DNA from: Aquabacterium sp. OR-4
GTDB lineage: Bacteria > Pseudomonadota > Gammaproteobacteria > Burkholderiales > Burkholderiaceae_C
Assembly (NCBI RefSeq): GCF_025290835.2
Contig: NZ_JAOCQD020000001.1
Coordinates: 806,001 to 870,000 of the forward strand
Length of the DNA: 64,000 nucleotides
Direction of reading: 5' to 3'
Shown here: in pieces, positions 26,509-46,749 of the stretch
Layout: each line of letters begins with the position of its first letter
Position numbering within the stretch: the stretch's first letter is position 1
Program-made: the position numbers and the translations under genes
Notes under the pieces: generated by a model
What the model saw: only the letters and a program-made list of their open reading frames with translations
The model's database searches: none
Told to the model about the DNA's origin: nothing

Positions 26509-26532
26509 CCGATGCCCCCCGAGGTCTTGCCC

Positions 26533-26976
26533 ATGCGCCGTGTCCACTTCACCCGCCGGCCTGCCGCCAGGCGCCGCGGCTTCACGCTGATCGAGGTCTG
26601 CATCGTGCTGGTGGTGGTGGCGCTGCTGTCGGCCATTGCCTACCCCAGCTACCACGGCCATGTGGCGCGCAGCCGCCGGGCCGATGCCAAGCAGTCGCTG
26701 CTGGATCTGGCGCAGCGGCTCGAGCGCTTCTACACCGAGCGCGGCACCTATGCCGGCGCCACGCTGGGCGGCGGCAGCGGCCTCTACCCCACCACCTCGC
26801 AGGCCGGCCACTACACGCTGGCCATCGGCTCGCAGTCGGCCGACGGCTTCACCATCACCGCCACGCCCACCGGCAGCCAGACGGGCGACGCCTGCGCCGC
26901 CTTCGGCTACAACCACCTGGGCGAGCAGACGGTGAGCAGCGCCGCCACGCTCAGCGCCGGCAAGTGCTGGCAGTGA
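26533..26976 (+). CDS. pilE: Type IV pilus minor pilin PilE
   Basis: A 147-residue pilin with processing site RRRG^FTLIEVCIVLVVVALLSAIAYPSY, Glu5 present and a methylatable Phe at +1. The following region (RSRRADAKQSLLDLAQRLERFYTERGTYAGA) is the PilE minor-pilin signature, and two Cys residues (GDACAAFG, AGKCWQ) bracket the usual C-terminal disulfide loop. ATG at 26533 is preferred over one at 26512 because CCGAGG lies 9 bases ahead. Last gene of the minor pilin operon. Confidence 0.88.
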   Translation: MRRVHFTRRPAARRRGFTLIEVCIVLVVVALLSAIAYPSYHGHVARSRRADAKQSLLDLAQRLERFYTERGTYAGATLGGGSGLYPTTSQAGHYTLAIGSQSADGFTITATPTGSQTGDACAAFGYNHLGEQTVSSAATLSAGKCWQ

Positions 26977-28378: not shown

Positions 28379-31300
28379 ATGTTCTCGCTGCTCCGCCGAC
28401 GCACACCGCGTCGGGCGCCCCTGCCCCTGCCCCGCGAACCCCGTCTGGCGCTCGAGCCACGCATCATGTTCGATGGCGCCATGCTGGCCGATGCGGCGCT
28501 GGCCGCCGGCATCGGCCAGGCGGCCACGGCCGCCGCGGCCACCCCAACCGCCACCACCACCGCTGAATCCGCCGCAGCGGCCTGCACGCCGGACGGCGCC
28601 GGCACCAACGGCCCGGGCCCGCAAGGCAGTGACAACGTGCCGGCCGACGGGGCCACCGCCCACGGCCTGGGCGAGGCCGACCCGCTGCGCGCGGGCGATG
28701 GCGCCGATGCCGCACCCGCCGTGCGCGAGTTCGCGTTTGTCGACCGCGACCTGCCGCAGCTGCCGCAACTGCTGCAGCAGCTGCCGCCGGGCGCCCAGCT
28801 GGTGCTGCTGGACCCCGCGCGCGACGGGCTGGCCCAGGTCAACGAGGCGCTGGCCGGCCAGACCGAGGTGCAGGCCATCCACCTGATCACCCATGGCGAA
28901 CTGGGCGCGGTGATGCTGGGCAGCACCCGGCTCGACCTGGCCAGCGCCGCCGAGGACCATGCCCAGGCCCTGGCCACGCTGGGCCAGCACCTGGCCAGCG
29001 GCGCCGATGTGCTGCTGTATGGCTGCCAGGCGGCCGGCTCGGCCGCCGCGGTGGCCGGCATGGAGCGCCTGGCGCTGGCGCTGGATGCCGACCTGGCCGC
29101 CTCGGACGACGCCACCGGCGCCGCGGCGCTGGGTGCCGACTGGCAGCTCGAGCAGCGCAGCGGCGCCATCGAGGCCATGGTGCTGGAGGGCGGCGACTGG
29201 TTCGGCACGCTGGCGCTGCTATCGGTGGGCATCAGCCTGAACGTCAACACCCCGCTCACCGTGGCCGAGGATTCGACGCTGGCCTTCACCGGCAGCAACC
29301 TGCTGCAGATCTCGCTGTCCAACATCCTGGCCACCAGCACCGAGGTGCGGCTGACGGTGCAGCACGGCACGGTGAGCTTCGGCTCGATCGCCGGTGTCAC
29401 GGTCACCGAGGGCGATGGCAGCGCCGACACCGCCGTGACCCTGCGCGGCAGCGCCACGGCGATCAACAGCGTGCTCAGCGGCCTGCTCTACAACGCCGAC
29501 CCCGATTACCACGGCAGCGACACGCTGCAGCTGGTGGTGCGCCAGACTGTGCTGGGCATCCTGAGCATCTCGGCGCCGATCAACCTCGGGCTGCAGATCG
29601 GCGCGGTGGCCGACATCGTGGCCGACAGCGCCAGCACGCTGCGCGACCAGGCGGTGGCCGTCAACCTGATGGCCAACGACCATTTCGAGCGTGGCAGCGC
29701 CGCGGTCAGCAGCGTCACCCAGCCGGCGCATGGCACGGTGGCCCTGGTCGGCAACGTGGCCACCTACACGCCGGCGGCCGGCTACACCGGCGCCGACAGC
29801 TTCAGCTACACCGTGACCAGTGGCTCGGTCAGCGAGACCACCACCGTGGCGCTGACCGTGGCCGTGCCCAACACGCCGCCCAGCGTGGGGGCCCCCGCCA
29901 CCGCCAGCGGCAGCGAAGACCAGGACCTGGTGTTTGCCAGCGCCCAGGGCAATGCGCTGAGCGTGGCCGATGTGGACGGCGGCACGCTCACCGCCACGTT
30001 GTCGGTCAGCCAGGGCACGCTGTCGCTGGCCGGCACCAGCGGCCTGAGCTTCAGCAGCGGCGACGGCACGGCCGATGCCAGCTTGGTGTTCAGCGGCAGC
30101 GCGGCGGCCATCAACCAGGCGCTGGAAGGTCTGCGCTACACGCCCACGGCCGATTACCACGGCAGCGCCACGCTCAGCCTGGCGGCCAGCGACGGCCAGG
30201 CCAGCCAGTCGGCCAGCGTGGCCATCACGCTGGGCGCCCAGGCCGATGCCGTGGCCGACAGCGTGATCACCGACGTGCTCACGCCGGTCACCCTCTACCC
30301 GCTGGCCAACGACGGTTTCGACGGTGCCGCCAGCATCGTCTCGGCCACCGGTGCCGCGCATGGCACGCTGCTGCTGGGCCTGGGCGGCGCGGTGACCTAC
30401 ACCCCCGATGCCGGCTACCGCGGCAGCGACAGCTTCACCGTGGCGGTGAGCGCCGGCGGCGTGATCGAGACGCAGACCGTGGCCGTCACCGTGGGCATCA
30501 ACCATGCACCGGTGCTGAGCGGCTCGCTGGGCGGCATCAGCACGCAGGATGCGGCCCTGGTCTCGGCCTCGGTGGCCGCCGGCTTCAGCGACAGCGACCT
30601 GGTCGACACGCTCAGCTTCTCGGCCACCGGCCTGCCGGCCGGGCTGTCGATCCATGCGGCCACCGGCCTGATCTCGGGCCAGCTGGGCGGCCATGCCTCG
30701 CAGGCCCAGGGCGGCAGCTATGCGGTGCAGGTCACGGCCACCGACAGCGGCGGCCTCAGCGCCACCGCCACGCTGCAGATCAACGTCAGCAACCCGGCGC
30801 CGCTGGTGGTGGCCGGCGTGGCCGCGGGCCAGGAAGACAGCAACCTGCGCGTGGAGGCGCTGCTCAATGCCAGCGACGCCGACGGCGACGCGCTGAGCAT
30901 CGCCGCCGCGGCAGCGCTCAACGGCACGGTGACGATCAACCCCGACGGGTCGCTGAGCTACACGCCGGCGGCGCACTTCAACGGCCTGGACACCATCACC
31001 TACACGGTGCTCGACGCCGATGGCGGCACCGCCACCGGCAGCATCGCCGTCACGGTGGCCGCGGTGGCCGATCTGCCCACGCTGCAGCTGCCCACGATCC
31101 CGGTTTTTGTCGAAGACACGCCGATCATCTTTGCCTCGCTGCTGGGCACCCAGATCGCGGTCGGCGATGTGGACGGTCAGGTGCTCGAGATCGAGCTCTC
31201 GGTGCCCGGCGGCCTGCTCACGCTGGGGCAGACGGCCGGCGTCAACATCAGCCAGGGCGATGGCGTGGACGACAGCCTGATCCGCATGTCGGGCACGGCG

Positions 31301-34300
31301 GTGAACCTGCAGGCCGCGCTCGAGCAGCTGCAGCTGCTGCCCGGGGCCGACTACAACGGCCCGCTCACGCTGAGCGTCTCGCTCGGCCCGCTGGGGCAGA
31401 CGCTGGGGGTCAGTGCCACGCTGCCGCTGGGCATCGTGGCGGTGGCCGACATCGTGGCCGACAGCGTCAGCACCGTGGCCGGCCAGGCGGTGGGCTTCAA
31501 TGTGCTGGACAACGACAGCTTCGAGCACGCCGGGCGCGTGGTCAGCGCCTACCAGACGCCGGCGCACGGCACGGTGAGCATCAATGCCCAGGGCCAGGCG
31601 GTGTACACGCCGGTGGCGGGTTATGTGGGCACCGACAGCTTCACCTACACCGTCACCAGCAACGGCACCACCGAGACCGCCACGGTCACGGTGAGCATCG
31701 GCGCGGCGCCCAACCAGGCCCCCACCGGTGCCAGCCTGTCCGACCTGCAGCGCAACGACGGCGCCAGCGTGTCGCTGAACCTCTCTGCCGCCTTTGCCGA
31801 TGCCGATGGCGACGCGCTGCAGTTCAGCGCCAGCGGCCTGCCGGCCGGGCTGCAGATCGACAGCGCCAGCGGCGTGATCAGCGGCACGCTCGACCGCCAT
31901 GCCTCCAGCGCCGTGCCGGGCGGCGTGTACACCGTGGTCATCACCGCCAGCGACGGCCGCGGCGGCACGGTGACCCGGGCCTTCGAGCTGACCGTGGCCA
32001 ACCCGCCGCCGCTGGCCGGCGACGACAGCGCCACGGTGGCCGAAGACGGCGTGCTGAACGACCAGCTGCTGGCCAACGACAGCGACCCCGACGGCGACAG
32101 CCTGCGCGTGGACACCACGCCGGTCAGCGGCCCGGCGCATGGCGGCCTGGTGCTGCGCGCCGATGGCAGCTACACCTACACGCCGGTGGCCAACTTCCAC
32201 GGCAGCGACAGCTTCAGCTACCGCCTGATCGACGCCGATGGCGGCGTCACCGTGGCCACGGTGCACATCACCGTGAGCCCGGTCAACGATGCGCCGGTGG
32301 CGGTGAACGACGGCGTCAGCACGCAGGAGGACACCGCCGTCAGCATCGCGGTGCTGGCCAACGACAGCGACGCCGATGGCGACACGCTCAGCGTCAGCGC
32401 CGCCAGTGCCGGCCATGGCAGCGTCAGCATCGGCCCGGGCGGTGTGCTGCAGTACACCCCGGCGGCCCACTTCCACGGCAGCGACACGATCACCTACACG
32501 GTCAGCGACGGCCAGGGCGGCAGCAGCACGGCGCAGGTCAGCGTCACGGTCGTGGCCGTCAACGATGCGCCCACCGCCGGGCCCCTGGCCGACCATGCCA
32601 ACACCGTGGGCACGGCGGTCAGCCTGCAGGCGGGCGCGGCCTTTGCCGATGCCGATGGCGACGCGCTGCAGTTCAGCGCCACCGGCCTGCCGCCGGGCCT
32701 GAGCCTGGACGCGGCCACCGGCCTGATCAGCGGCACGCCCAGCACGCCCGGCAGCTACAGCGTGACGGTGAGCGCCGCCGACGGCAACGGCGGCACGGTG
32801 AGCCAGAGCTTCCAGTGGACCGTGGCGGCGGCCGCCAACAACGGCCCCAACACCGTGGGCAGCCTGGCCACCGCCAACGCCAGCGATGGCCAGACATTCA
32901 GCCTGGCCACTGCCGGTGGTTTCAGCGATCCGGATGGCGATGCCCTGACCTACAGCGCCAGCGGCCTGCCGGCCGGCCTGGCCATCGATGCCGCCACCGG
33001 CGTGATCAGCGGCACGCTGGGCAGCGGCGCCTCGGCGCTCGTGCCCGACGGCGTGTACACCGTCACCGTCACCGCCAGCGACGGCCGCGGCGGCCAGGTC
33101 AGCCAGGCCTTCACGCTGAGCGTGGGCAATGTCGGCCCCAGCGCGGCCAACGACAACGTGACGCTGGCCGAAGACGCCAGCGCCAGCGGCAATGTGCTGC
33201 TCAACGACAGCGACGCCGACGGCGATGCGCTGCGCGTGGACACCACGCCGGTGGCCGCCCCGGCGCACGGCACGCTGGTGCTCAACGCCGACGGCAGCTT
33301 TGTCTACACGCCCGACGCCAACTTCTCGGGCAGCGACAGCTTCAGCTACCGCGTGGTCGATGCCGATGGCGGCAGCAGCACCGCCACCGTCACGCTCAGC
33401 GTGGCGCCCAGCAACGACGCGCCCACCGCCGGCCCGCTGGCCGACCACAGCAACGCCGTGGGCACGCCGGTCAGCTTCAATGCCGGCGCGGTGTTTGCCG
33501 ATGCCGATGGCGACGCGCTGCAGTTCAGCGCCACCGGCCTGCCGCCGGGCCTGAGCCTGGATGCTGCCACCGGCCTGATCAGCGGCACGCCCAGCACCCC
33601 GGGCAGCTTTGCGGTGACGGTCAGCGCGGCCGACGGCAACGGCGGCAGCGTCAGCCAGAGCTTTGTGTGGACCGTGGCTGCCGCGCCCAACAACGGCCCC
33701 AACACCGTGGGCAGCCTGGCCACCGCCAGCGCCAGCGATGGCCAGACGCTCAGCCTGGCCACCGCCGGCGGCTTCAGCGATGCCGATGGCGATGCCCTGG
33801 CCTACAGCGCCAGCGGCCTGCCGGCCGGCCTGGCCATCGACGCCGCCACCGGGGTGATCAGCGGCACGCTGGGCAGCGGCGCCTCGGGCGCGGTGGCGGG
33901 TGGGGTGTACACCGTCACCGTCACGGCCAGCGATGGCCGCGGCGGCCAGGTCAGCCAGGCCTTCACGCTGAGCGTGGGCAATGTCGGCCCGCAGGCCGCC
34001 AACGACAACCTGAGCCTGGCCGAAGACGGCAGCGTCAGCGGCAATGTGCTGGCCAACGACAGCGACGCCGATGGCGATGCGCTGGCCGTGGACACGCCCG
34101 CGCTCAGCGGCCCGGCGCATGGCAGCCTGGTGCTCAACACCGACGGCAGCTTCGTCTACACGCCCGACGCCAACTTCTCGGGCACCGACAGCTTCAGCTA
34201 CCGCATCGTCGATGCCGACGGTGCCAGCAGCACGGCCACCGTGACCCTCACCGTCACCGCCGCCAACGACGCCCCCAGCGCCGCCGCTTTGGCCGACCGC

Positions 34301-37300
34301 AGCAATGCCATCGGCGCGACGGTGAACTTCAATGCCGGCGCGGTGTTTGCCGATGCCGATGGCGATGCGCTGCAGTTCAGCGCCAGCGGCCTGCCGCCGG
34401 GCCTGAGCCTGGACGCGGCCACCGGCCTGATCAGCGGCACGCCCAGCACCGCCGGCAGCTTTGCGGTGACCCTCAGCGCGGCCGATGGCAACGGCGGCAG
34501 CGTGAGCCAGAGCTTCCAGTGGAGCGTGGCCGCCGCCGCCAACAACGGCCCCGACACCGTGGGCAGCCTGCCCACCGGCACGGCCACCGCCGGCGGTTTC
34601 AGCGATGCCGATGGCGACGCCCTGGCCTACAGCGCCAGCGGCCTGCCGGCCGGCCTGGCCATCGATGCCGGCACCGGCGTGATCAGCGGCACGCTGGGCA
34701 GCGGCGCCTCGGCCGCGGTGCCCGGCGGCGTGTACACCGTGATGGTCACGGCCAGCGACGGCCGCGGCGGCCAGGTCAGCCAGGCCTTCACGCTGAGCGT
34801 GGGCAATGTCGGCCCCAGTGCCGTCAACGACAGCGCCAGCCTGGCCGAAGACGGCAGCCTCAGCGGCAATGTGCGCGCCAACGACAGCGACGCCGATGGC
34901 GACGCGCTGACCGTCGACACCACGCCCGTGGCCGCCCCGGCCCACGGCACGCTGGTGCTCAACGCCGATGGCAGCTTCGTCTACACGCCCGATGCCAACT
35001 TCTCGGGCAGCGACAGCTTCAGCTACCGCTTGATCGATGCCGATGGCGGCAGCAGCACCGCCACGGTGAACCTCTCGGTCAACGCCGCCAACGACGCCCC
35101 CACCGCCAGCGCGCTGGCCGACCGCAGCAACGCCACCGGCGCGGCGGTGAGCTTCAACGCCGCGGCGGCCTTTGCCGATGCCGATGGCGACGCGCTGCAG
35201 TTCAGCGCCACCGGCCTGCCGCCGGGCCTGAGCCTGGACGCGGCCACCGGCCTGATCAGCGGCACGCCCAGCACGCCCGGCAGCTACAGCGTGACGGTGA
35301 GCGCCGCCGACGGCAATGGCGGCACGGTGAGCCAGAGCTTCCAGTGGGCCGTGGCGGCGGCCGCCAACAATGGCCCCAACACCGTGGGCAGCCTGGCCAC
35401 CGCCAGCGCCAGCGATGGCCAGACGTTCAGCGTGGCCACCGCCGGCGGTTTCAGCGATCCGGATGGCGATGCCCTGGCCTACAGCGCCAGCGGCCTGCCG
35501 GCCGGCCTGGCCATCGACGCCGCCACCGGCGTGATCAGCGGCACCGTGGCGGCCGGCGCCTCGGCGCTCGTGCCCGACGGCGTGTACACCGTCACCGTCA
35601 CCGCCAGCGACGGCCGCGGCGGCCAGGTCAGCCAGGCCTTCACGCTGAGCGTGGGCAATGTCGGCCCCAGCGCCGCCAACGACAACCTGACGCTGGCCGA
35701 AGACGCCAGCGCCAGCGGCAATGTGCTGCTCAACGACAGCGACGCCGATGGCGATGCGCTGCGGGTCGACACCACGCCGGTGGCCGCCCCGGCGCACGGC
35801 ACGCTGGTGCTCAACGCCGACGGCAGCTTCGTCTACACGCCCGACGCCAACTTCTCGGGCAGCGACAGCTTCAGCTACCGCGTGGTCGATGCCGATGGCG
35901 GCAGCAGCACCGCCACCGTCAATGTCACGGTGCAGGCCAGCAACGACGGCCCCAGTGCCGGCGCCATTGCCGACCGCAGCAACACCACCGGCGTGCCGGT
36001 CAACTTCAACGCCGGCACCGTGTTTGCCGATGCCGATGGCGATGCCCTGCAGTACAGCGCCACCGGCCTGCCGCCGGGCCTGAGCCTGGATGCCGCCACC
36101 GGCCTGATCAGCGGCACGCCCAGCACCCCGGGCAGCTTTGCGGTGACGCTCAGCGCGGCCGACGGCAACGGCGGCAGCGTCAGCCAGAGCTTTGTGTGGG
36201 CCGTGGCCGTGGCGGCCAACAACGGCCCCAACACCGTGGGCAGCCTGCCGCTGGCCGTGGCCAGCGACGGCCAGGCCGTGAGCCTGCCCACCGCCGCCGG
36301 CTTCAACGACCCCGATGGCGACGGCCTGGCCTACAGCGCCAGCGGCCTGCCGGCCGGCCTGGCCATCGATGCCGCCACCGGCGTGATCAGCGGCACCGTG
36401 GGCAGCGGCGCCTCGGGCGCCGTGGCGGGTGGGGTGTACACCGTCACCGTCACGGCCGACGATGGCCGCGGCGGCCAGGTCAGCCAGGCCTTCACGCTGA
36501 GCGTGGGCAATCTCGGCCCGCAGGCGGCCGACGACAGCCTGAGCCTGACCGAAGACACCAGCGCCAGCGGCAACGTGCTGGCCAACGACAGCGACGCCGA
36601 CGGCGACGCGCTGCGGGTCGACACCACGCCGGTGGCTGCCCCGGCGCACGGCACGCTGGTGCTCAACGCCGACGGCAGCTTCGTCTACACGCCCGAGGCC
36701 AACTTTTCGGGCAGCGACAGCTTCCGCTACCGCGTGATCGATGCCGACGGCGGCAGCAGCGTGGCCACGGTCAACATCAGCGTCGCGCCGGGCAACGACG
36801 CCCCCAGCGCCGCGGCGCTGGCCGACCGCAGCAATGCCATCGGCGCGGCGGTGAACTTCAATGCCGGCGCGGTGTTTGCCGATGCCGATGGCGACGCACT
36901 GCAGTACAGCGCCACCGGCCTGCCGCCGGGCCTGAGCCTGGACGCGGCCACCGGCCTGATCAGCGGCACGCCCAGCACCGCCGGCAGCTTTGCGGTGACC
37001 CTCAGCGCGGCCGATGGCAACGGCGGCAGCGTGAGCCAGAGCTTCCAGTGGAGCGTGGCCGCCGCCGCCAACAACGGCCCCGACACCGTGGGCAGCCTGC
37101 CCACCGGCACGGCCAGCGACGGCCAGACGATCAGCCTGGCCACCGCCGGCGGTTTCAGCGATGCCGATGGCGACGCCCTGGCCTACAGCGCCAGCGGCCT
37201 GCCGGCCGGCCTGGCCATCGATGCCGCCACCGGCGTGATCAGCGGCACGCTGGGCAGCGGCGCCTCGGCCGCCGTGCCGGGCGGCGTGTACACCGTCACC

Positions 37301-38506
37301 GTCACCGCCAGCGACGGCCGCGGCGGCCAGGTCAGCCAGGCTTTCACGCTGAGCGTGGGCAATGTCGGCCCGGCCGCCGCCGACGACCGCCTGACCCTGG
37401 CCGAAGACAGCGCCGCCAGCGGCAACGTGCTGGCCAACGACCGCGATGCCGATGGCGACGCGCTGCGCGTCGACACCACGCCGGTGGCCGGCCCGGCCAA
37501 CGGCAGCCTGGTGCTCAATGCCGACGGCAGCTTCACCTACACGCCCGACGCCAACTTTGCCGGCAGCGACAGCTTCAGCTACCGCGTGCTCGATGCCGAC
37601 GGCGGCAGCAGCACGGCCACGGTCACGCTCACCGTCACGCCCGGCAACGACGCCCCCACCGCCAGTGCCAGCCCGCCGGCCAGCCTGACCGCCGGCAGCG
37701 CCGCCACGCCGCTGGCCATGGCGCCGCTGGTGCAGGACGCCGACGGCGACGCGCTCGGCTTTGGCGCCATCAACCTGCCGCCGGGCCTGGTGATCGACCC
37801 GGTCAGCGGTGAGATCAGCGGCACGCCCACGCAGCCCGGCAGCTTTGACGTGGTGGTGCGCGCCACCGACCCCGCCGGCGCGGTGGTGGACGTGGCGCTG
37901 CGCATCGAGGTGGCCGCCGCCAGCGTGGCCGAGCCCAGCACGCCGGCCGAAGAGCCGCTGGCGCCGCCGGTGTTCGACACCGGTGGCTTCACCCAGGCCG
38001 ATGCCGCCCTGGCCGACCGCGATGGCAATGGCCTGCTGGGCCAGCTCGGCAGCGATCCGGGCGAGCCGCCCACCGAGCGCGATATCGAGCCGGTGCTGCT
38101 GAAGGCCATCAATGCCGTGAAGTCGCTCGAGAGCGTGGCCGACATCAGTGGCGACTCGCCCCTGGTGGCGGCCATCGGCGGCGTGCAGTCGCTGGGCCGG
38201 CCGGCCGAGATCGCGGCCGATGCCCCGCCCATGGCCACCGCCGTGGGCGACCTCAGCGCCGGCTTTCGCGAGCCCACCCGGCTCGACGAGATCGGCAGCG
38301 GCCCGTTCGGCATCTCGGCCGGCGCGGCCCTGCCGCCCGGCATGCTGGGCGGCACCGACACCCTGGCCGGCCTGCCCGACAACCGCGCCCTGCCGCGCGT
38401 GGTGGCCGATGCCGGCCTGGCACCGCAGCCGGTGCAGCAGCAACTGCTGGACGCGCTGCAGCGCCGCGCCGCCGAAGTCGACGAACTGGGCCGCGCACTG
38501 GGCTGA
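28379..38506 (+). CDS. Giant repeat adhesin with LEPR motif and DUF4347 domain
   Basis: A 3375-residue surface protein. The N-terminus lacks a signal peptide but has a basic stretch and LALEPRIMFDGA (LEPR at 25-28), a motif common at the start of very large secreted adhesins. Residues about 110-285 form DUF4347, with a possible His/Cys dyad (LITHGELG, His172; LLYGCQAAG, Cys216). The rest is Ig-like/cadherin-like repeats: putative-Ig units (GLPAGLAIDAATGVISGT) alternating with VCBS/Big_9-type units (NDSDADGDAL...GSFVYTPDANFSGSDSFSYR), including six near-identical 284-residue repeats. The last 190 residues are non-repetitive, with no RTX nonapeptides. AGGA precedes the ATG. It heads the operon with its likely exporter. 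Any DADGDAL motifs may bind calcium. Confidence 0.88.
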   Translation: MFSLLRRRTPRRAPLPLPREPRLALEPRIMFDGAMLADAALAAGIGQAATAAAATPTATTTAESAAAACTPDGAGTNGPGPQGSDNVPADGATAHGLGEADPLRAGDGADAAPAVREFAFVDRDLPQLPQLLQQLPPGAQLVLLDPARDGLAQVNEALAGQTEVQAIHLITHGELGAVMLGSTRLDLASAAEDHAQALATLGQHLASGADVLLYGCQAAGSAAAVAGMERLALALDADLAASDDATGAAALGADWQLEQRSGAIEAMVLEGGDWFGTLALLSVGISLNVNTPLTVAEDSTLAFTGSNLLQISLSNILATSTEVRLTVQHGTVSFGSIAGVTVTEGDGSADTAVTLRGSATAINSVLSGLLYNADPDYHGSDTLQLVVRQTVLGILSISAPINLGLQIGAVADIVADSASTLRDQAVAVNLMANDHFERGSAAVSSVTQPAHGTVALVGNVATYTPAAGYTGADSFSYTVTSGSVSETTTVALTVAVPNTPPSVGAPATASGSEDQDLVFASAQGNALSVADVDGGTLTATLSVSQGTLSLAGTSGLSFSSGDGTADASLVFSGSAAAINQALEGLRYTPTADYHGSATLSLAASDGQASQSASVAITLGAQADAVADSVITDVLTPVTLYPLANDGFDGAASIVSATGAAHGTLLLGLGGAVTYTPDAGYRGSDSFTVAVSAGGVIETQTVAVTVGINHAPVLSGSLGGISTQDAALVSASVAAGFSDSDLVDTLSFSATGLPAGLSIHAATGLISGQLGGHASQAQGGSYAVQVTATDSGGLSATATLQINVSNPAPLVVAGVAAGQEDSNLRVEALLNASDADGDALSIAAAAALNGTVTINPDGSLSYTPAAHFNGLDTITYTVLDADGGTATGSIAVTVAAVADLPTLQLPTIPVFVEDTPIIFASLLGTQIAVGDVDGQVLEIELSVPGGLLTLGQTAGVNISQGDGVDDSLIRMSGTAVNLQAALEQLQLLPGADYNGPLTLSVSLGPLGQTLGVSATLPLGIVAVADIVADSVSTVAGQAVGFNVLDNDSFEHAGRVVSAYQTPAHGTVSINAQGQAVYTPVAGYVGTDSFTYTVTSNGTTETATVTVSIGAAPNQAPTGASLSDLQRNDGASVSLNLSAAFADADGDALQFSASGLPAGLQIDSASGVISGTLDRHASSAVPGGVYTVVITASDGRGGTVTRAFELTVANPPPLAGDDSATVAEDGVLNDQLLANDSDPDGDSLRVDTTPVSGPAHGGLVLRADGSYTYTPVANFHGSDSFSYRLIDADGGVTVATVHITVSPVNDAPVAVNDGVSTQEDTAVSIAVLANDSDADGDTLSVSAASAGHGSVSIGPGGVLQYTPAAHFHGSDTITYTVSDGQGGSSTAQVSVTVVAVNDAPTAGPLADHANTVGTAVSLQAGAAFADADGDALQFSATGLPPGLSLDAATGLISGTPSTPGSYSVTVSAADGNGGTVSQSFQWTVAAAANNGPNTVGSLATANASDGQTFSLATAGGFSDPDGDALTYSASGLPAGLAIDAATGVISGTLGSGASALVPDGVYTVTVTASDGRGGQVSQAFTLSVGNVGPSAANDNVTLAEDASASGNVLLNDSDADGDALRVDTTPVAAPAHGTLVLNADGSFVYTPDANFSGSDSFSYRVVDADGGSSTATVTLSVAPSNDAPTAGPLADHSNAVGTPVSFNAGAVFADADGDALQFSATGLPPGLSLDAATGLISGTPSTPGSFAVTVSAADGNGGSVSQSFVWTVAAAPNNGPNTVGSLATASASDGQTLSLATAGGFSDADGDALAYSASGLPAGLAIDAATGVISGTLGSGASGAVAGGVYTVTVTASDGRGGQVSQAFTLSVGNVGPQAANDNLSLAEDGSVSGNVLANDSDADGDALAVDTPALSGPAHGSLVLNTDGSFVYTPDANFSGTDSFSYRIVDADGASSTATVTLTVTAANDAPSAAALADRSNAIGATVNFNAGAVFADADGDALQFSASGLPPGLSLDAATGLISGTPSTAGSFAVTLSAADGNGGSVSQSFQWSVAAAANNGPDTVGSLPTGTATAGGFSDADGDALAYSASGLPAGLAIDAGTGVISGTLGSGASAAVPGGVYTVMVTASDGRGGQVSQAFTLSVGNVGPSAVNDSASLAEDGSLSGNVRANDSDADGDALTVDTTPVAAPAHGTLVLNADGSFVYTPDANFSGSDSFSYRLIDADGGSSTATVNLSVNAANDAPTASALADRSNATGAAVSFNAAAAFADADGDALQFSATGLPPGLSLDAATGLISGTPSTPGSYSVTVSAADGNGGTVSQSFQWAVAAAANNGPNTVGSLATASASDGQTFSVATAGGFSDPDGDALAYSASGLPAGLAIDAATGVISGTVAAGASALVPDGVYTVTVTASDGRGGQVSQAFTLSVGNVGPSAANDNLTLAEDASASGNVLLNDSDADGDALRVDTTPVAAPAHGTLVLNADGSFVYTPDANFSGSDSFSYRVVDADGGSSTATVNVTVQASNDGPSAGAIADRSNTTGVPVNFNAGTVFADADGDALQYSATGLPPGLSLDAATGLISGTPSTPGSFAVTLSAADGNGGSVSQSFVWAVAVAANNGPNTVGSLPLAVASDGQAVSLPTAAGFNDPDGDGLAYSASGLPAGLAIDAATGVISGTVGSGASGAVAGGVYTVTVTADDGRGGQVSQAFTLSVGNLGPQAADDSLSLTEDTSASGNVLANDSDADGDALRVDTTPVAAPAHGTLVLNADGSFVYTPEANFSGSDSFRYRVIDADGGSSVATVNISVAPGNDAPSAAALADRSNAIGAAVNFNAGAVFADADGDALQYSATGLPPGLSLDAATGLISGTPSTAGSFAVTLSAADGNGGSVSQSFQWSVAAAANNGPDTVGSLPTGTASDGQTISLATAGGFSDADGDALAYSASGLPAGLAIDAATGVISGTLGSGASAAVPGGVYTVTVTASDGRGGQVSQAFTLSVGNVGPAAADDRLTLAEDSAASGNVLANDRDADGDALRVDTTPVAGPANGSLVLNADGSFTYTPDANFAGSDSFSYRVLDADGGSSTATVTLTVTPGNDAPTASASPPASLTAGSAATPLAMAPLVQDADGDALGFGAINLPPGLVIDPVSGEISGTPTQPGSFDVVVRATDPAGAVVDVALRIEVAAASVAEPSTPAEEPLAPPVFDTGGFTQADAALADRDGNGLLGQLGSDPGEPPTERDIEPVLLKAINAVKSLESVADISGDSPLVAAIGGVQSLGRPAEIAADAPPMATAVGDLSAGFREPTRLDEIGSGPFGISAGAALPPGMLGGTDTLAGLPDNRALPRVVADAGLAPQPVQQQLLDALQRRAAEVDELGRALG
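32849..37933 (+). repeat. Six tandem repeats of 852 bases inside the adhesin gene
   Basis: The anchor (A/G)ACACCGTGGGCAGCCTG recurs at 32849, 33701, 34553, 35378, 36230 and 37082. Spacings are 852, 852, 825, 852 and 852 bases. The short unit lacks 27 bases encoding a SDGQTxSLA-type stretch, so the frame is kept. Each unit encodes one Ig-like domain, one cadherin/VCBS-type domain and a second Ig-like domain. The sixth unit diverges in its last third. Homologous exchange between units could change adhesin length. Confidence 0.9.
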
Positions 38507-38541
38507 TGCCCGTGGCCCGCAGCATCAGGGAGCCCCTGGCG

Positions 38542-40113
38542 ATGTCAAAACCCAACCTGCAAGACGAGCGCCCAGAAATCCCGAGCATGACGCGCCGCCA
38601 GTGCCTGGGCGGCCTGGCCGGCGCCTCGGCGCTGGGCGCTGCCCTGGGCCTGGGCGGCTGCGCCTCGCGCCCGCAGGCCATCGACGCCCCGGCCAACGCG
38701 GTGAAGCTGCGCGGCCAGCTCGAACGCCAGATCTCCGGCGAAGACCGGGTCGAAGGCCCGATCTCGCTGTACGAGGCCATGGCGCGGGCGCTGAAGTACA
38801 ACCTCGACCAGAAGATCGAGATGATGGAAGTGGTGCTGCGCGAGCGCCAGTTCGAGGCCCGCAGCGCCGACCAGCTGCCCACCCTGGTGGCCGGCTCGGG
38901 CTTCAGTGCCCGCAACAACGACGCCGGCTCGCGCAGCCGCTCGCTGCTCACCGGCCGCGAATCGCTGGAACCTTCCAGCTCGAGTGAGCGGCAGAGCACC
39001 ACCTCCGAGCTGGCGCTGAGCTGGGACGTGCTCGACTTCGGCCTGGCCCGGGTGCGCCACCGCCAGCAGGCCGACGAGCGCCTGATCTCGGCCGAGCGCC
39101 GGCGCAAGGTCATCAACCGCATCCTCGAGGATGTGCGCACCGCCTACTGGCGCGCGGTCAGTGCCGACCGCACCGCCAAGAAGCTGGCCGACCTGGAGGT
39201 GCTGGCCGGCCGCGCGATGCGCCAGGCCGAGGAGCTGGAGCAGCGCCGCGTGGCCTCGCCCAACATGGTGCTGGCCTACCAGCGCGACCTGCTGCAGGTG
39301 CAGGCCGATGTGCAGAAGCTGCAGCGCGAGCTGTCGCTGGCCAAGAGCCAGCTGGCCGCGCTGATGAACCTGCGCCCCGATGCCGCGTTCCGCCTGGTGC
39401 TGCCCGACCGGACCGACGTGGTGCCCGAGCTGCCGGGCTCGGCCGACGAGATGGTGCTCACCGGCCTGCGCTTCCGGCCCGAGGTGCGCGAGGCGGCCTA
39501 CCGCCAGCGCATCCTGCGCGGCGAGTTCGATGCCGCCTTCCTGCGCGCGCTGCCCACGGTGCGCACCGTGCTGGGCCTCAACCACGACAGCAACGAGTTC
39601 CTCTACAACCCGCAGTGGCTGAACCTGAGCGCGCGGCTCAGCTGGAACCTGCTGGACGTGTTCCGCTACCCGGCCAACAAGCGTGCGCTCGACGCCGAGG
39701 TGGCCACGCTCGATCAGCGCGACCTGGCCCTCACCATGGCGGTGATGACCCAGGTCTACGTGGCGCGCGTGCGCTTCGTGCGCCTGTCGCAGGAGCTGAG
39801 CACGGTGCAGCGCTCGCAGGGGGTGCAGGAGCGCCTGCTGGCCCAGGCCCGCGGCGCCTTCAAGGCCCGCGCGATCAGCCAGCAGCAGCTGGTTCGCGAA
39901 GAGATGAACGGCGTGCTGTCCGAGGTGCGCTACGACGTCGCCTACTCCGATCTTCAGAACGCCTATGCGAATTTGTACGCGTCCATGGGCCTGGACAACT
40001 TCGACATCGACGCCGGGGCCGAAGTGCCGCTCAAGAAGCTGACCGAAACGCTCGAAGAACACTGGACGGAACGTGCCCTGAGCTTGCCGGCCATGCCGGA
40101 CAAGAGCTCCTGA
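38542..40113 (+). CDS. TolC-like outer-membrane efflux lipoprotein
   Basis: A 523-residue protein of the TolC/outer-membrane-factor family. Repeated long helical hairpins include ISLYEAMARALKYNLDQKIE, LSWDVLDFGLARVR (the TolC-type strand motif) and its second-half copy LSARLSWNLLDVFRYPANK. The N-terminus MTRRQCLGGL...LGLGGC has a lipobox (Cys40) and a twin-arginine-like RR pair, unusual for this family. ATG at 38542 follows AGGGAG by 9 bases; a start at 38506 overlapping the adhesin stop (TGATG) or at 38587 is possible. It should form the outer-membrane exit duct for the adhesin, working with the two adaptor genes downstream. Confidence 0.85.
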   Translation: MSKPNLQDERPEIPSMTRRQCLGGLAGASALGAALGLGGCASRPQAIDAPANAVKLRGQLERQISGEDRVEGPISLYEAMARALKYNLDQKIEMMEVVLRERQFEARSADQLPTLVAGSGFSARNNDAGSRSRSLLTGRESLEPSSSSERQSTTSELALSWDVLDFGLARVRHRQQADERLISAERRRKVINRILEDVRTAYWRAVSADRTAKKLADLEVLAGRAMRQAEELEQRRVASPNMVLAYQRDLLQVQADVQKLQRELSLAKSQLAALMNLRPDAAFRLVLPDRTDVVPELPGSADEMVLTGLRFRPEVREAAYRQRILRGEFDAAFLRALPTVRTVLGLNHDSNEFLYNPQWLNLSARLSWNLLDVFRYPANKRALDAEVATLDQRDLALTMAVMTQVYVARVRFVRLSQELSTVQRSQGVQERLLAQARGAFKARAISQQQLVREEMNGVLSEVRYDVAYSDLQNAYANLYASMGLDNFDIDAGAEVPLKKLTETLEEHWTERALSLPAMPDKSS

Positions 40114-40139
40114 CAAAACTGTCCTGAACCCCTGACTTC

Positions 40140-41003
40140 ATGAGCATCCCACGCCAATCCAAGCCCCGGCCGGCCGGCGCGCTGGCCTTGCTGCTGGCCT
40201 GCGCCGCCACGCTCAGCCAGGCGCAGACCCGCCCGGCACCCACGCCGGCGGCCGCAGCGGCGGCGGTGGTGGCCAGCCCTGCACCCGCCCCGGTGGGCAG
40301 CGGCGCCGCCGTGGTGCGCAGCCACCCGGGCAGCAGCAGCGGCATCGCCCGCGGCGTGGTGCGCGCCACGGCCGAGGCCACGCTCACCGCCCGCCTGTCG
40401 GCGCGCATCACCGAGATGCCGCTGGCCGAGGGCGCCACCTTTGCCAAGGGCGATCTGCTGGTGGCCTTCGAGTGCGAGCGGCCGCAGGCCGAGGCCCGCG
40501 CCGCGGCAGCGGCCCTGGCCGCCCAGCGCAAGCAGGTCGAGACCAACGAGGAGCTCGACCGCTTCAACGCCATCGGCAAGAACGACCTGCTGGTGTCGAA
40601 GTCGCAGCTCGACAAGGCGCAGGCCGAGGCCGATGCGCTGAACACCCAGCTGCGCGAGTGCCGCCTGCAGGCGCCGTTTGCCGGCCGGGTGATGACGCGC
40701 CAGGCGCGCCAGCATGAATCGGTGCAGGCCGGCGCGCCGCTGCTGCGCATCGTCGACACCAGCGCCATCGAGGTCGACCTGATCGTGCCCTCGCAGTGGC
40801 TGGCCTGGCTGCGACCCGGCACCGCCTTCGTGTTCCGCATCGACGAAACCGGCGCCCAGCTGCCGGCCAAGGTGCAGCGCCTGTCGGCCACGGTCGATCC
40901 GGTCAGCCGCACGATGAAGATCACCGCCAGCTTTGACGATGCCGCCGCGCGCGTATTGCCCGGCATGAGCGGCACCGGTGCCGGCTGGCGGGTGCCACGA
41001 TGA
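40140..41003 (+). CDS. Periplasmic adaptor (membrane fusion protein, RND/HlyD type)
   Basis: A 287-residue exported adaptor with a Sec-type signal peptide (residues 1-28, ending TLSQAQ). A lipoyl/barrel-sandwich half-motif follows (ARLSARITEMPLAEGATFAKGDLLVAFE), then a short helical hairpin (about residues 118-168), the second lipoyl half (CRLQAPFAGRVMTRQARQHESVQAGAPLLRIVD) and a beta-barrel domain. It is short for the family and lacks a membrane anchor or lipobox. Adaptors of this kind bridge an inner-membrane transporter and a TolC-like channel. Its stop overlaps the next adaptor gene by 4 bases. Confidence 0.85.
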   Translation: MSIPRQSKPRPAGALALLLACAATLSQAQTRPAPTPAAAAAAVVASPAPAPVGSGAAVVRSHPGSSSGIARGVVRATAEATLTARLSARITEMPLAEGATFAKGDLLVAFECERPQAEARAAAAALAAQRKQVETNEELDRFNAIGKNDLLVSKSQLDKAQAEADALNTQLRECRLQAPFAGRVMTRQARQHESVQAGAPLLRIVDTSAIEVDLIVPSQWLAWLRPGTAFVFRIDETGAQLPAKVQRLSATVDPVSRTMKITASFDDAAARVLPGMSGTGAGWRVPR

Positions 41004-42490
41004 GCGGCAGCGATGAGCTGACGCTCGAGCGGTCGCCCGGCGCGCTGGCCGCCGATCTGCTGGCGCGCAGCGCCGCGGCAGCGGCGGCCGAGCCCGCGCC
41101 GCCCGGCAGCCTGCCGCGCTCGGGCACGGCGGCGCCGTCGCCGCCGCCGGGCTCGTCCTCGTCGGCGCTGCGCCTGTTGCAGTACGAGGCCGAGGTGCGC
41201 CGCGTGCAGGGCGAGCAGGCCTTGCTGATGCACCTGGTCAACGAGGCCCGCAGCCTGGTGCCCTATGGCCAGGCCATCGTCTTCCGGCGCCGTGGCGGCG
41301 GCCGCGGCTGGCGCCCGGTGGCGGTGTCGGGCCTGCCCTCGGTGGATGCCAACTCGCCGCTGCTGGTGGCGCTGGGCCGCGGCCTGGCGCGGCAGACCGG
41401 CAGCACGCTGCAGGACATGAAGTCGCTCGACCTGCAGTCGGCCAGCGCTTGGCCGGGCCTGGACGAGCGCAGCCGCGGCACGCTGCGCGGCTTTGCGCTG
41501 CCGCAGGGCCTGTGGGTGCCGCTGCCCGATGCGGCCGACCGGGTGGATGCCGGCGTGCTGTTCCTGCGCGAGGCGCCCTTCAACCCCGGCGCCACGGTGC
41601 TGCTGCGCCGCCTGGGCCAGACCTATGCCCATGCGTGGACGGCCTTGTCGGGCCCGCGCCGGCGCACCCTGGGCCAGGCGCGCACGCCCTGGCTGGTGCT
41701 GGCGGCGCTGCTGCTGCTCACCGCGCTGGGTGCCATGCCGGTGCGCCTGAGCGTGATGGCGCCGGTGGAGGTGGTGGCCGCCGAGCCGCAGGTGCTGACC
41801 GCGCCGATCAACGGCGTGGTGCGCCGCATCAACGTGGCGCCCAGCGCCACGGTGGCGGCGGGCGAGGTGGTGGTGCAGTTCGACGACATCCAGCCGCGCA
41901 ACGAGATGCTGCTGGCGCAGCAGCGTCTGGCGGTGGCCCAGGCGCGCGACGCGCGCACCGCGGCGGCCGCCTTCCAGAACCCCGAGGCCGCGCACGAGCT
42001 GGCCACCGCACGCGCCGAGTACGAGCTGGCGCGCGTCAACCACGACTATGCGGTCGAGGTGCTGGCCCGCACCGCGGTGCGCGCGCCGCAGGCCGGCGTG
42101 GTGATCTACACCGACCGGCGCGACTGGGAGGGCCGCGCCGTGCAGGTGGGCGAGGAGATCGTGCAGGTGGCCGATCCGCAGCGCATTGCCCTGCGCGTGG
42201 AGGTGCCCACCGGCAACAGCCTGCCGCTGGCCACCGGCGGGCGCGGTGACGTGTACCTCGACAACGTGCCCTTCGGCGGCATTCCGGCCCGGGTGCGCCA
42301 TGCCTCGTACACGCCGCGCACGCTGCCGGGTGGCGACACCGCCTATACCGTGATGCTGGCGGCCGAACCGGGCCATCTGCCGCGCATCGGCGCGCGCGGC
42401 ACCGCGCGGCTGTACGGCGACGAGGTGCCGCTGGTGGTGCAGCTGCTGCGCCGGCCGCTGTCGGCGGTGCGCCAGTTCGTCGGCGTCTGA
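41000..42490 (+). CDS. GAF-like domain fused to a HlyD-type adaptor
   Basis: A 496-residue fusion. Residues 1-55 are disordered (Ala/Pro/Ser-rich). Residues 55-215 resemble a GAF-type sensor (LMHLVNEARSLVPYGQAIVFRR...GLWVPLPDAADRVDAGVLFL). One transmembrane segment (about 229-250) leads to a periplasmic HlyD-like part with lipoyl halves (LTAPINGVVRRINVAPSATV; VRAPQAGVVIYTDRRDW) and a coiled-coil hairpin between. The topology puts the GAF-like part in the cytoplasm, so export might be gated by an internal signal; that is inference. It overlaps the previous gene (ATGA) and precedes the M50 gene by 16 bases. Confidence 0.82.
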   Translation: MSGSDELTLERSPGALAADLLARSAAAAAAEPAPPGSLPRSGTAAPSPPPGSSSSALRLLQYEAEVRRVQGEQALLMHLVNEARSLVPYGQAIVFRRRGGGRGWRPVAVSGLPSVDANSPLLVALGRGLARQTGSTLQDMKSLDLQSASAWPGLDERSRGTLRGFALPQGLWVPLPDAADRVDAGVLFLREAPFNPGATVLLRRLGQTYAHAWTALSGPRRRTLGQARTPWLVLAALLLLTALGAMPVRLSVMAPVEVVAAEPQVLTAPINGVVRRINVAPSATVAAGEVVVQFDDIQPRNEMLLAQQRLAVAQARDARTAAAAFQNPEAAHELATARAEYELARVNHDYAVEVLARTAVRAPQAGVVIYTDRRDWEGRAVQVGEEIVQVADPQRIALRVEVPTGNSLPLATGGRGDVYLDNVPFGGIPARVRHASYTPRTLPGGDTAYTVMLAAEPGHLPRIGARGTARLYGDEVPLVVQLLRRPLSAVRQFVGV

Positions 42491-42506
42491 CGCCACAGAG
42501 CCCGAG

Positions 42507-44636
42507 ATGCAAGCGCTGGACGACGCCCTGCCGCTGCCGCCGCTGCGCCCCGAGCTGCAGCTGGCCGAGGCGCCGCCCGAGCCCGGCGGTGCGGCCCGCT
42601 GGCGGCTCGACGATCCGCTGCGCCAGCGCAGCTTCTTGCTCGCCGAGGGCGATCTGCGCCTGCTGGCGCTGTGGCCGCTGGGCCGCGTGGGGGCGCTGCG
42701 TGCGGCCTGGCAGCGCAGCCTGGCCGGGCCCGACAGCCAGTTCGAGCAGCAGCTGGGCGGCCTGATGGATTTTCTGCGCCAGCACCACCTGCTGGTGGCA
42801 CAGCCGGGGCGCGACAGCACGGCGCTGGCCGAGCAGGCCGCACGCCAGGCCCACCCGGGCCTGCGCGGCTGGTTCGGCCGCTGGATGGGCTGGCAGCTGC
42901 CGCTGCTGCGGCCTCAGGGTTTCCTGGAGGCCACCCTGCCGCTGGTGCGCGGCCTGTGGACCTGGCCGGCGCTGCTGCTGTGGGCGCTGTGCACGCTGCT
43001 GGGCCTGTACCTGGTGTCGCGCCAGTGGGATGCCTTCATCGGCAGTTTTGCGCAGTTCAACCAGCCCGAGGGCTGGCTGGCCTATGCGCTGGTGCTGCTG
43101 GCGCTGAAGCTGCTGCACGAGCTGGGCCATGCCTATGCCGCCGTGCAGCACGGCGTGCAGGTGCCCAGCATGGGCCTGTCGGTGGCCATGGGCGTGCCGA
43201 TGTTCTACACCGACACCAGCGGCGCCGTGCGCCTGCCGCGGCGCGCTGCGCGGCTGTGGATCGGCGGCGCCGGCATGCTGGCCGAATCAATGCTGGCCGG
43301 CCTGTGCACGCTGGCCTGGGCGCTGCTGGCCGACGGGCCGCTGCGCTCGGCCTGCTTCGTCGTGGCCACCTCGAGCTGGCTCACCACGCTGGCCATCAAC
43401 CTCAACCCGCTGGGGCGCTTTGACGGCTACTACATGCTGTCCGACGCGCTGGGCCTGGCCAATCTGCAGCAGCGTGCGCTCGACCACGCCGGCTGGGCCG
43501 CCGGGCGCCTGCTGCTGGGGCCGGTGATGGCCGCGCCCGAGCCGGCCGGGCCCGCGCGGCGCGCCGGCCTGATCGTGTTTGGCGCGGGGGTGTGGCTGTT
43601 CCGGCTGTCGCTGGGCCTGGCCGCGGCTGGGCTGGCGTATGCGCTGCTGTTCCAGCTGGCCGGCCTGGTGCTGGCCGCGGCCACGCTGTGGTGGCTGCTG
43701 CTGGCGCCGCTGCTGCGCCAGCTGGCCGCCTGGTGGCAGTTGCGCGGCGCGGTGGGCATGGGCCGCTGGCTGGGCCTGGCGCTGCTGCTGGCCGGCCTGG
43801 GCTGGGTCGTGCAGGCGCCGCTGGACCAGCGGGTGCGCGGCGCCGCCGTGCTGGGCTGGCAGCACGAGCAGCTGCTGCAGGCGCCCGAGGTGGCCACGGT
43901 GGATGCGCTGCTGGTGCGCGATGGCCAGCCGGTGCGCGCCGGCCAGCTGCTGCTGCGCCTGCGCTCGCCCGAGCTGCAACGCCGCCTGGCCGAGGCCGAG
44001 AACCAGCGCGTGCTGACCCTCGAGCGCCTGGCGCGCATTGCCGGCGACGCGCGCGACCGCAACGACCTGCTGGTGCTCGAGCAGCAGCGCGCCGAGGCCG
44101 ATGCCGCGGTGCAGGGCCTGCGTCTGCGCGTGGCGCAGCTCGAGCTGCGCGCCCAGGCCGACGGCCACCTGGTCGACATGCCGGCCTGGCTGCAGCCGGG
44201 CCAGTGGGTGCGGCCCGAGCGCACCCTGGGCCGCGTGCTGCTGGGCCAGCGGCTCGAGGTGCAGGGCTATGTCGACGACGCCGCGCTGCGGCGCCTGCAG
44301 GCCGGCGCGCCGGCGGTGTTTCTGGCCGACGACCTGAGCCTGGCGCCCGTCACGCTGCGCCTGAGCGCGGTGGAGCAGGCCACGGCCGAGCAGGTCACGC
44401 CCGAGCTGCTGGCCTCGGTGCACGGCGGCAGCGTGCCCACGGTGCTGGACAAGCGCGGCCGTGCCGTGCCGCAGCAGCCGGTGCACCGGGCGCGCTTCGA
44501 GGTGATGCAGGCCGGGGCGCCACTGGCGTCGCGGCTGTTGCGCGGGCAGGTGCAGATCGAGGCCGAGCCCGAGAGTCTGGCGGTGCAGTCGGGCCGGCGC
44601 ATGTGGCAGCTGTTGCTGCGCGAACTGCAGGGCTAG
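42507..44636 (+). CDS. M50-family membrane metalloprotease fused to a HlyD-like domain
   Basis: A 709-residue polytopic membrane protein. The zinc motif HELGH (His204-Glu205-His208) lies in a transmembrane segment, and NPLGRFDGYY supplies the third ligand Asp306, as in site-2 proteases. About eight hydrophobic segments span residues 150-445. After them comes a periplasmic lipoyl-type/HlyD segment (LLQAPEVATVDALLVRDGQPVRAG, a helical hairpin, and AQADGHLVDMPAWLQPGQWV). The N-terminal 150 residues are cytoplasmic. M50/HlyD fusions are known near peptide-export operons. Here it occupies the place an ABC exporter would normally hold, so it may process or move the adhesin. Confidence 0.85.
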   Translation: MQALDDALPLPPLRPELQLAEAPPEPGGAARWRLDDPLRQRSFLLAEGDLRLLALWPLGRVGALRAAWQRSLAGPDSQFEQQLGGLMDFLRQHHLLVAQPGRDSTALAEQAARQAHPGLRGWFGRWMGWQLPLLRPQGFLEATLPLVRGLWTWPALLLWALCTLLGLYLVSRQWDAFIGSFAQFNQPEGWLAYALVLLALKLLHELGHAYAAVQHGVQVPSMGLSVAMGVPMFYTDTSGAVRLPRRAARLWIGGAGMLAESMLAGLCTLAWALLADGPLRSACFVVATSSWLTTLAINLNPLGRFDGYYMLSDALGLANLQQRALDHAGWAAGRLLLGPVMAAPEPAGPARRAGLIVFGAGVWLFRLSLGLAAAGLAYALLFQLAGLVLAAATLWWLLLAPLLRQLAAWWQLRGAVGMGRWLGLALLLAGLGWVVQAPLDQRVRGAAVLGWQHEQLLQAPEVATVDALLVRDGQPVRAGQLLLRLRSPELQRRLAEAENQRVLTLERLARIAGDARDRNDLLVLEQQRAEADAAVQGLRLRVAQLELRAQADGHLVDMPAWLQPGQWVRPERTLGRVLLGQRLEVQGYVDDAALRRLQAGAPAVFLADDLSLAPVTLRLSAVEQATAEQVTPELLASVHGGSVPTVLDKRGRAVPQQPVHRARFEVMQAGAPLASRLLRGQVQIEAEPESLAVQSGRRMWQLLLRELQG

Positions 44637-45712: not shown

Positions 45713-45753
45713 CCCAGGACCTGCCAAACCCCTTTTTTTGATGGAGACGAGGC

Positions 45754-46746: not shown

Positions 46747-46749
46747 GCC

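Follow-up and report, generated by a model that had tools for sequence, protein, structure and literature searches.

How is a protein of some 3000 residues moved through a TolC channel when there is no ABC exporter and no dedicated SecA to do the work? This question is posed by five adjacent forward-strand genes in a 64 kb stretch of the genome of Aquabacterium sp. OR-4 (contig NZ_JAOCQD020000001.1, positions 806,001 to 870,000; the whole stretch is called the window below), where they span positions 28379-44636. As a preliminary description of this DNA had stated, they encode a giant adhesin, a TolC-like channel, two adaptors and a membrane metalloprotease fused to a HlyD-like segment, M50-HlyD (Table 1). 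The gaps between them are only -1, 26, -4 and 16 bases, so that they likely form one operon. We conclude that this operon probably encodes a tripartite exporter that is guided by a leader, works without an ABC protein and serves the giant adhesin encoded with it. What has been established directly is that the gene set is conserved, with no SecA-like genes and few ABC exporters beside it, that the linked giants share a leader motif, and that M50-HlyD has invariant catalytic residues and the domain layout described below; export of the adhesin by this gene set is presumed.

Type I systems for giant adhesins, LapA/LapBCE among them, likewise combine a giant repetitive adhesin with HlyD-type adaptors and a TolC channel. 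The window set differs from these in the lack of an ABC exporter, in an adhesin that has an N-terminal motif and no RTX repeats, and in the fusion of a metalloprotease to an adaptor. The type I components present are the HlyD-family adaptor and the TolC-family channel (Pfam OEP); the type I HlyD model TIGR01843 matches within the set below its cut-off only, and not at all in the first adaptor. No type I ABC exporter was found in the 64 kb with two LssB-type queries (E 1e-3), and in the 20 kb flanks the same queries matched only two short upstream ABC ATPases (366 and 381 aa), which by eye are of the import type. A type I ABC gene hidden beside the operon is thus ruled out. Both absences noted in the preliminary description, that of a visible exporter and that of RTX repeats (there is no GGxGxD in the window adhesin), were borne out.

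The gene set recurs widely. A search for homologues of M50-HlyD covered 60 related genomes, of which 32 matched at E 0.001, several through the HlyD part only, and 31 loci were classified. Five of these, in four genomes (G005 twice, G008, G047 and G050), resemble the window, and the remaining 26 form a second class. In 80 additional loci searched by tblastn at E 1e-6, the M50 gene was found in 80, the second adaptor in 78, the first adaptor in 76, the TolC gene in 53 and the adhesin N-terminus in 44; in several loci with failed or wrong-strand gene calls (for example L049, L070, L086, L102, L105 and L123), the counts are those of tblastn. Such recurrence is far beyond chance, and chance or an annotation artefact as the source of the set is ruled out by it. 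The set occurs in Pseudomonadota, Nitrospirota, Thermodesulfobacteriota and one record labelled Bdellovibrionota, and leader-bearing giants recur beside it in differing gene orders. Because 88 of the 299 genomes sampled from the phylum have an M50-HlyD match at E 1e-20, export by this route may be common among giant surface proteins.

A FastTree phylogeny of 112 M50-HlyD proteins separates two branches with local support of 100 on both sides. One comprises the window protein and 85 rows, none with a SecA-like gene in the locus, and the other 26 rows, 24 with such a gene; the SecA label needs three changes on the tree. No SecA-like gene was found in the 80 loci of the window branch, or in the window and 20 kb on each side of it. 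In the sister branch, a gene of ~670 codons lies within 470 bases after the M50 gene in 24 of 26 loci, the exceptions being L057, which stops at a contig end, and L052, which has no SecA-like gene in 20 kb and whose genome has other SecA-like copies. The idea that all relatives are without a motor is thereby ruled out. This ATPase and the N-terminal motif described below, which is common to the linked giants, had been overlooked in the preliminary description.

The ~670-codon proteins are SecA by Pfam (SecA_DEAD, P-loop_SecA, PP_bind) in three examples, and by NCBIfam in two of these. Of 18 aligned rows, 17 retain the GxGKT, DExD-like and GRGTDI motifs, the exception (L039) being degenerate and holding a run of X, and the model of the L031 protein (mean pLDDT 85.9) matches the fold of 1tf5 at E 4e-52. 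SecA has its helical wing and two-helix finger in the C-terminal part. The alignment of the SecA-like profile with Bacillus subtilis SecA ends at residue 609 of chains of ~780-840 residues; judged by this alignment, the sister-branch ATPase is a shortened SecA without the C-terminal part. Strict SecA-like matches (E 1e-200) were found in 31 of the 299 genomes, and all 31 are among the 88 with M50-HlyD. By our reading of the tables, with three M50 candidates per genome scored, 36 of 39 strict matches lie within 1 kb of an M50 match; those on G144:C86, G073:C1 and G227:C39 have no listed M50 match on their contig.

What the linked giants have in common is found at their N-termini. The window adhesin, whose start codon is the ATG at 28379, carries DUF4347 near its N-terminus (PF14252, 135.4 bits against a cut-off of 24.6), followed by ~20 Ig/cadherin-like repeats, and exceeds the NCBIfam cut-offs for tandem-95 and BapA/Bap/LapF-type adhesin models. 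The earlier statement that it has no signal peptide is incomplete, for it passed over LEPRIMFDGA at residues 25-34. Giant candidates were defined as low-arginine open reading frames of at least 800 codons in the loci, and the motif was sought within residues 1-200 of each open frame. The pattern L-E-x-R-x(1,2)-[LMF]-[FLYSD] is present in 54 of 57 giants with the N-terminus inside the locus, a rate that is flattered, since the pattern was written after examples had been seen and many loci are close kin; 34 further giants that run off the locus ends were left out of the count. The background is 3 of 1146 other called proteins (100-799 residues) and 0.37% of shuffled N-termini. The three giants without the motif are an antisense frame (L104), a downstream piece (L150, with the leader in another frame) and an apparently unlinked protein (L068, a stretch of G005 fetched as flank). 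Most leaders have LEPRxLFDGA or LLSA forms; among 49 distinct copies, F comes next in 41, D is present in 45 and G or A in 49. At the other end of the adhesins, where type I substrates have an uncleaved secretion signal, a weaker [LFVMI]xxQ[LFVIM] element is found in 33 of 41 C-termini of the window branch, compared with 22% of shuffles.

The window's genome contains two further M50-HlyD systems. On the minus strand of G000:C4:289837-330828 (L031, L081, L171), an open frame of ~13,660 codons lies beside a SecA-bearing M50 operon; its N-terminus has AEPLEPRVLLSAE, it contains DUF4347 and 60 GGxGxD repeats, and it is presumed to be an exceptionally large substrate. Because the window adhesin has no such repeat, the repeat type is not the common denominator of the substrates. 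A third system, also SecA-bearing, is situated at G000:C3:635766-639972 (L032, L172), with an upstream open frame on the same strand of at least 7,318 codons, the start of which lies beyond the fetched stretch.

The AlphaFold2 model of M50-HlyD (mean pLDDT 86.9) has a small N-terminal domain of strands and helices, then a membrane part with eight or nine helices (by eye) and last an adaptor domain resembling those of MacA and MexA. The peptidase M50/site-2 motifs HExxH and NxxPxxxxD are present, with a Pfam score of 22.2 against a cut-off of 27.2; as HELGH and NLNPLGRFDG they fall in the membrane-helix part. The protein also matches NCBIfam daptide_HExxH (1.7e-30, 106.5 bits, under the model cut-off of 300). 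Fold searches with the whole model were dominated by the adaptor domain and were uninformative on the N-terminal and membrane parts. When a profile of both branches was used, the N-terminal domain matched PqqD (3g2b, E 7e-6); the N-terminal domain profiles of the two branches align with each other (hhalign probability 90.9, E 1e-6), and Pfam PqqD is found in 7 of 17 M50-HlyD members tested, the window protein being outside those seven. PqqD-like domains (RREs) bind leader peptides, which makes this domain a candidate reader and suggests, by analogy, that it may read the LExR leader. Near the N-terminus, 15 of 18 rows of the SecA branch and 0 of 6 of the window branch have an additional stretch, S-x-x-W-[YHF]-x-[VIL], and one might guess that it is a docking place for the SecA-like protein. 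The M50 genes of G123, G111 and G260 are matches with one in-frame TAA.

Among the remaining components, the TolC-like protein has twin arginines at its start and, by eye, a lipobox of the sequence LGGC. The second adaptor is homologous to the proteins in the same slot of other loci and is a relative of GAF-HlyD proteins, but the GAF label given to it earlier is unsupported: Pfam detects no GAF domain in the window protein, there is a weak match in 1 of 10 aligned members of the window branch, and a clear one is found in the SecA-bearing L036.

Table 1. Features of the export operon, in positions of the window.
Feature	Position	Strand	Remarks
Giant adhesin, 3375 aa, presumed substrate	28379..38506	+	Pfam DUF4347 2e-39, Big_9 (20 stretches), Cadherin_4/5, He_PIG
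LEPRIMFDGA leader motif, adhesin residues 25-34	28451..28480	+	LExR pattern
DUF4347 domain, adhesin residues 119-267	28733..29179	+	Pfam PF14252
VQQQL, C-terminal [LFVMI]xxQ[LFVIM] element	38432..38446	+	Common in adhesins of the window branch
TolC-family outer-membrane channel, likely lipoprotein	38506..40113	+	Pfam OEP 1.1e-28; lipobox by eye
Periplasmic adaptor, HlyD/RND-MFP type	40140..41003	+	Pfam HlyD_3 4e-22; NCBIfam RND_mfp above cut-off
Second adaptor, made up of a long N-terminal part, a membrane segment and a HlyD domain	41000..42490	+	Pfam HlyD_3 6e-12
M50-HlyD inner-membrane protein, 709 aa	42507..44636	+	NCBIfam daptide_HExxH, HlyD families
PqqD/RRE-like N-terminal domain, M50-HlyD residues 10-96	42534..42794	+	Three strands then three helices in model
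HELGH zinc motif, M50-HlyD residues 204-208	43116..43130	+	H204, E205, H208 invariant 24/24
NLNPLGRFDG second catalytic motif, M50-HlyD residues 298-307	43398..43427	+	N298, P301, D306 invariant 24/24
HlyD/MacA-like adaptor domain, M50-HlyD residues 437-692	43815..44582	+	

These findings suggest the following order of events. The PqqD/RRE-like N-terminal domain of M50-HlyD would bind the LEPRIMFDGA leader of the adhesin in the cytosol. The site-2-type zinc protease core would then clip or gate the leader within the membrane, as the invariant catalytic residues and the S2P proteases of peptide systems imply. From the domains and their fold, the HlyD part of M50-HlyD and the two adaptors would couple to the TolC lipoprotein and so form a duct to the surface. 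In the sister branch, gene linkage points to the operon-encoded shortened SecA-like ATPase as the source of force. In the window branch the housekeeping SecA is the most likely source, with somewhat less than an even chance of being correct; it would be the simplest motor, since the sister branch has a SecA derivative. A proton gradient or folding outside the cell is less likely, at roughly one chance in five, and an ABC or other motor acting in trans is improbable. More broadly, it is conceivable, if rather doubtful, that the pathway has no nucleotide-hydrolysing motor of its own: the leader-reading protease-adaptor would serve as both gate and inner-membrane duct, a proton gradient, an outside-folding ratchet or SecA without SecYEG would provide the drive, and the branch with the SecA-like protein would be the motorised sister.

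Several observations weigh against a leader-guided, ABC-independent exporter, and some of them speak for other explanations. The window adhesin scores 12.0 bits with NCBIfam LEPR-XLL (NF012209), under the cut-off of 17, its FDGA form being a variant, and the PqqD search with the window-branch profile alone gave no match; the pairing of leader and reader would therefore rest on relatives. The 80 loci were picked from 591 as those most like the window, a choice that favours its branch, and 23 of the 73 loci used for neighbour clustering (7 of the 80, without a called M50 gene, were dropped) are Pseudomonas or Stutzerimonas by title. The two SecA-like genes on other contigs of the window's genome, each beside its own M50 gene, could act in trans. 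The hydropathy measure used for the leader is also weak. By this measure the giants are generally less hydrophobic at the N-terminus than the adaptors, in favour of the proposed exporter: the best 12-residue value has a median of 1.56 in the first 100 residues of the 54 giants and 2.3 in the first 60 residues of 53 adaptors. But the value of the window adhesin (1.74) exceeds that of its own TolC lipoprotein (1.63), which leaves room for an atypical Sec signal.

This last point bears on a two-step route, in which SecA and SecYEG would take the adhesin to the periplasm by an atypical N-terminal signal, and M50-HlyD, the adaptors and TolC would take it onward from there. In the adhesin, a basic stretch precedes an Ala-rich segment of mild hydrophobicity, which fits such a route, as does the lone SecA of housekeeping size in 36 of the 39 genomes described below. 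However, E and R stand within the motif and D in 45 of its 49 distinct copies, which makes a poor hydrophobic core; the LLSA form of the leader is found with the SecA-like branch; and the cytosol-facing PqqD-like domain would be left without a role. We regard the two-step route as unlikely, with somewhat less than one chance in five.

Ordinary type I secretion, in which an LssB-, HlyB- or PrtD-type ABC exporter acts in trans and M50-HlyD and the adaptors are accessory, appears less probable still, at about one chance in eight. The window's genome has LssB-type genes at C2:1665541 and C2:682317, on another contig, that could act in this way, but the latter is accompanied by its own adaptor and OEP genes. 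Within the 80 loci, some ABC match was obtained at E 1e-6 in 15, and matches to the two LssB-type exporters above 100 bits in two, both pseudomonad, where a type I ABC lies ~7-9 kb upstream of the M50 gene (L146, partial; L148, complete and with a HlyD gene); the other 78 have no match of that strength. A consistently linked ABC gene, which the preliminary description had named as evidence to the contrary, was looked for in these 80 loci and was not found. As for a shared ATPase neighbour in the window branch, the top cluster outside Pseudomonas, besides core genes and giants, is present in 5 of 50 loci and is without Walker A. Another cluster, which by eye is an ABC import ATPase and has Walker A in 14 proteins, is present in 16 loci, mostly Pseudomonas, usually 7-8 genes off.

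Whole genomes were therefore scanned for the exporter in trans. The sample consists of 39 near-complete genomes with an M50-HlyD match and without a strict SecA-like match: 36 of the 57 such genomes of the phylum sample, picked for completeness of at least 97, contamination of at most 2 and a strong match (the weak-match G070, G180 and G346 were excluded), together with G005, G008 and G047. Three (G061, G128 and G347) have a divergent SecA-like gene beside M50, and the other 36 have a single SecA. In 25 of these 36, a type I ABC gene passes the curated cut-off of at least one of the three families, by LssB in 20, by HlyB additionally in G118 and by PrtD additionally in G050, G247, G250 and G161; this favours supply in trans. 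G050, which has no LssB- or HlyB-type gene above cut-off, was accordingly dropped as an example of a genome free of type I ABC. Against supply in trans, 11 of the 36 have no LssB, HlyB or PrtD exporter above the curated cut-offs. Six of these (G047, G111, G075, G104, G100 and G141) have weaker matches, and five (G082, G270, G354, G063 and G123) have none at E 1e-150 (LssB), 1e-130 (HlyB) and 1e-120 (PrtD); the scan scored the best 21-27 candidates per genome and covered these three ABC types.

Core genes were seen in all five. Seven of the 11 were opened (the five, G141 and G111), and M50 and both adaptors were present in 7/7 and TolC in 6/7, G063, whose contig is short, being without TolC in view. 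No SecA-like gene was found in the M50 stretches of the seven, two of which (G082 and G354) match an ABC ATPase weakly, at 71-72 bits. The adhesin N-termini in view, those of G082 and G354, both have the leader. With 11 of 36 genomes lacking an ABC above cut-off and no common ATPase neighbour other than the import-type one, it looks as if the branch has no general need of a dedicated SecA or of a type I ABC acting in trans, if these operons work.

That the set is a multidrug or small-molecule efflux system with the adhesin gene a mere neighbour is very improbable: the first adaptor exceeds the cut-off for the RND adaptor family, but no RND, MFS or ABC pump model of Pfam or NCBIfam matches the five proteins, leader-bearing giants recur beside the set in varied orders, and the protease core is catalytically conserved.

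The placing of M50-HlyD in the inner-membrane slot without an ABC, suggested in the preliminary description, thus fits the relatives (two of 80 loci above 100 bits; five of 36 genomes ABC-free at the limits searched), but it is not new as such. Secondary SecA_DEAD genes accompanied by M50-HlyD, GAF-HlyD and HlyD genes, with OEP genes in some loci and no ABC found, have been reported, and it was proposed that SecA is the ATPase and M50 the inner-membrane pore, the broader role being "completely unknown" (Kamneva, Poudel and Ward, 2015; PMC4452313). M50-HlyD, GAF-HlyD-type and HlyD genes occur together in the window as well, GAF itself being undetected in the window protein; the window branch differs in having a leader-bearing giant adhesin and a TolC gene and no SecA-like gene. 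Portions of that paper's text name no substrate or leader, and its M50 tree (S8) may include SecA-less relatives (PMC4452313). In a narrow literature search, the only follow-up was PMC5313232, which in the passages seen cites it in passing. To this the present analysis adds the SecA-less branch, which has a TolC gene and an adhesin, the leader common to the linked giants of both branches, a domain that likely reads it, and a count of the genomes without a candidate motor.

Very large proteins with an N-terminal LEPR motif, as here, are gathered in the LEPR-XLL family, and the giants of two SecA-bearing loci are above its cut-off (L058, 24.1 bits; L047, 22.9 bits). A LEPR-XLL giant has been named in Vibrio (PMC10868602), and a DUF4347 protein of Burkholderia thailandensis is marked 'Up' in a proteome table on the shift to stationary phase (PMC12322963). 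Passages of PMC7716237, PMC9430717, PMC13274458, PMC10868602, PMC12322963 and PMC5313232 contain no link between a LEPR or DUF4347 protein and M50-HlyD. Its M50 core, which matches daptide_HExxH, likens M50-HlyD to the S2P-type proteases of the daptide and YydH/LiaK peptide systems, and its PqqD-like domain likens it to the PqqD/RRE leader readers. Unlike these, M50-HlyD is fused to an adaptor domain, is linked to proteins of thousands of residues and is below the daptide and LiaK cut-offs. If the proposed export is correct, an orphan locus (SecA_DEAD/M50) and an orphan signal (LEPR-XLL) would be joined to each other and to a substrate class. The system is testable, since environmental Pseudomonas, for example the plant-associated P. 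thivervalensis, and Methylobacterium brachythecii have the window branch and Methylobacterium extorquens AM1 has the SecA-bearing form (PMC4452313).

Some neighbouring genes deserve mention. Upstream of the window operon (20025-26976, forward strand) is a run resembling type IV pilin and PilY1-like genes (by eye), and after it (44726-47838, forward strand) lie three consecutive genes for TctC-family periplasmic binding proteins; two similar TctC-type genes are likewise 3' of the operon in G008 (L048). In the SecA-bearing locus L036, a SapC-family gene (PF07277; L036:6826-7599) stands between a giant RTX-type protein and the GAF-HlyD gene; L041 and L059 have proteins whose N-terminus resembles that of this SapC-family protein by eye. 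PEP-CTERM proteins are encoded between the giant and the SecA-bearing export genes at L033:11237-11794 and L043:12425-13027.

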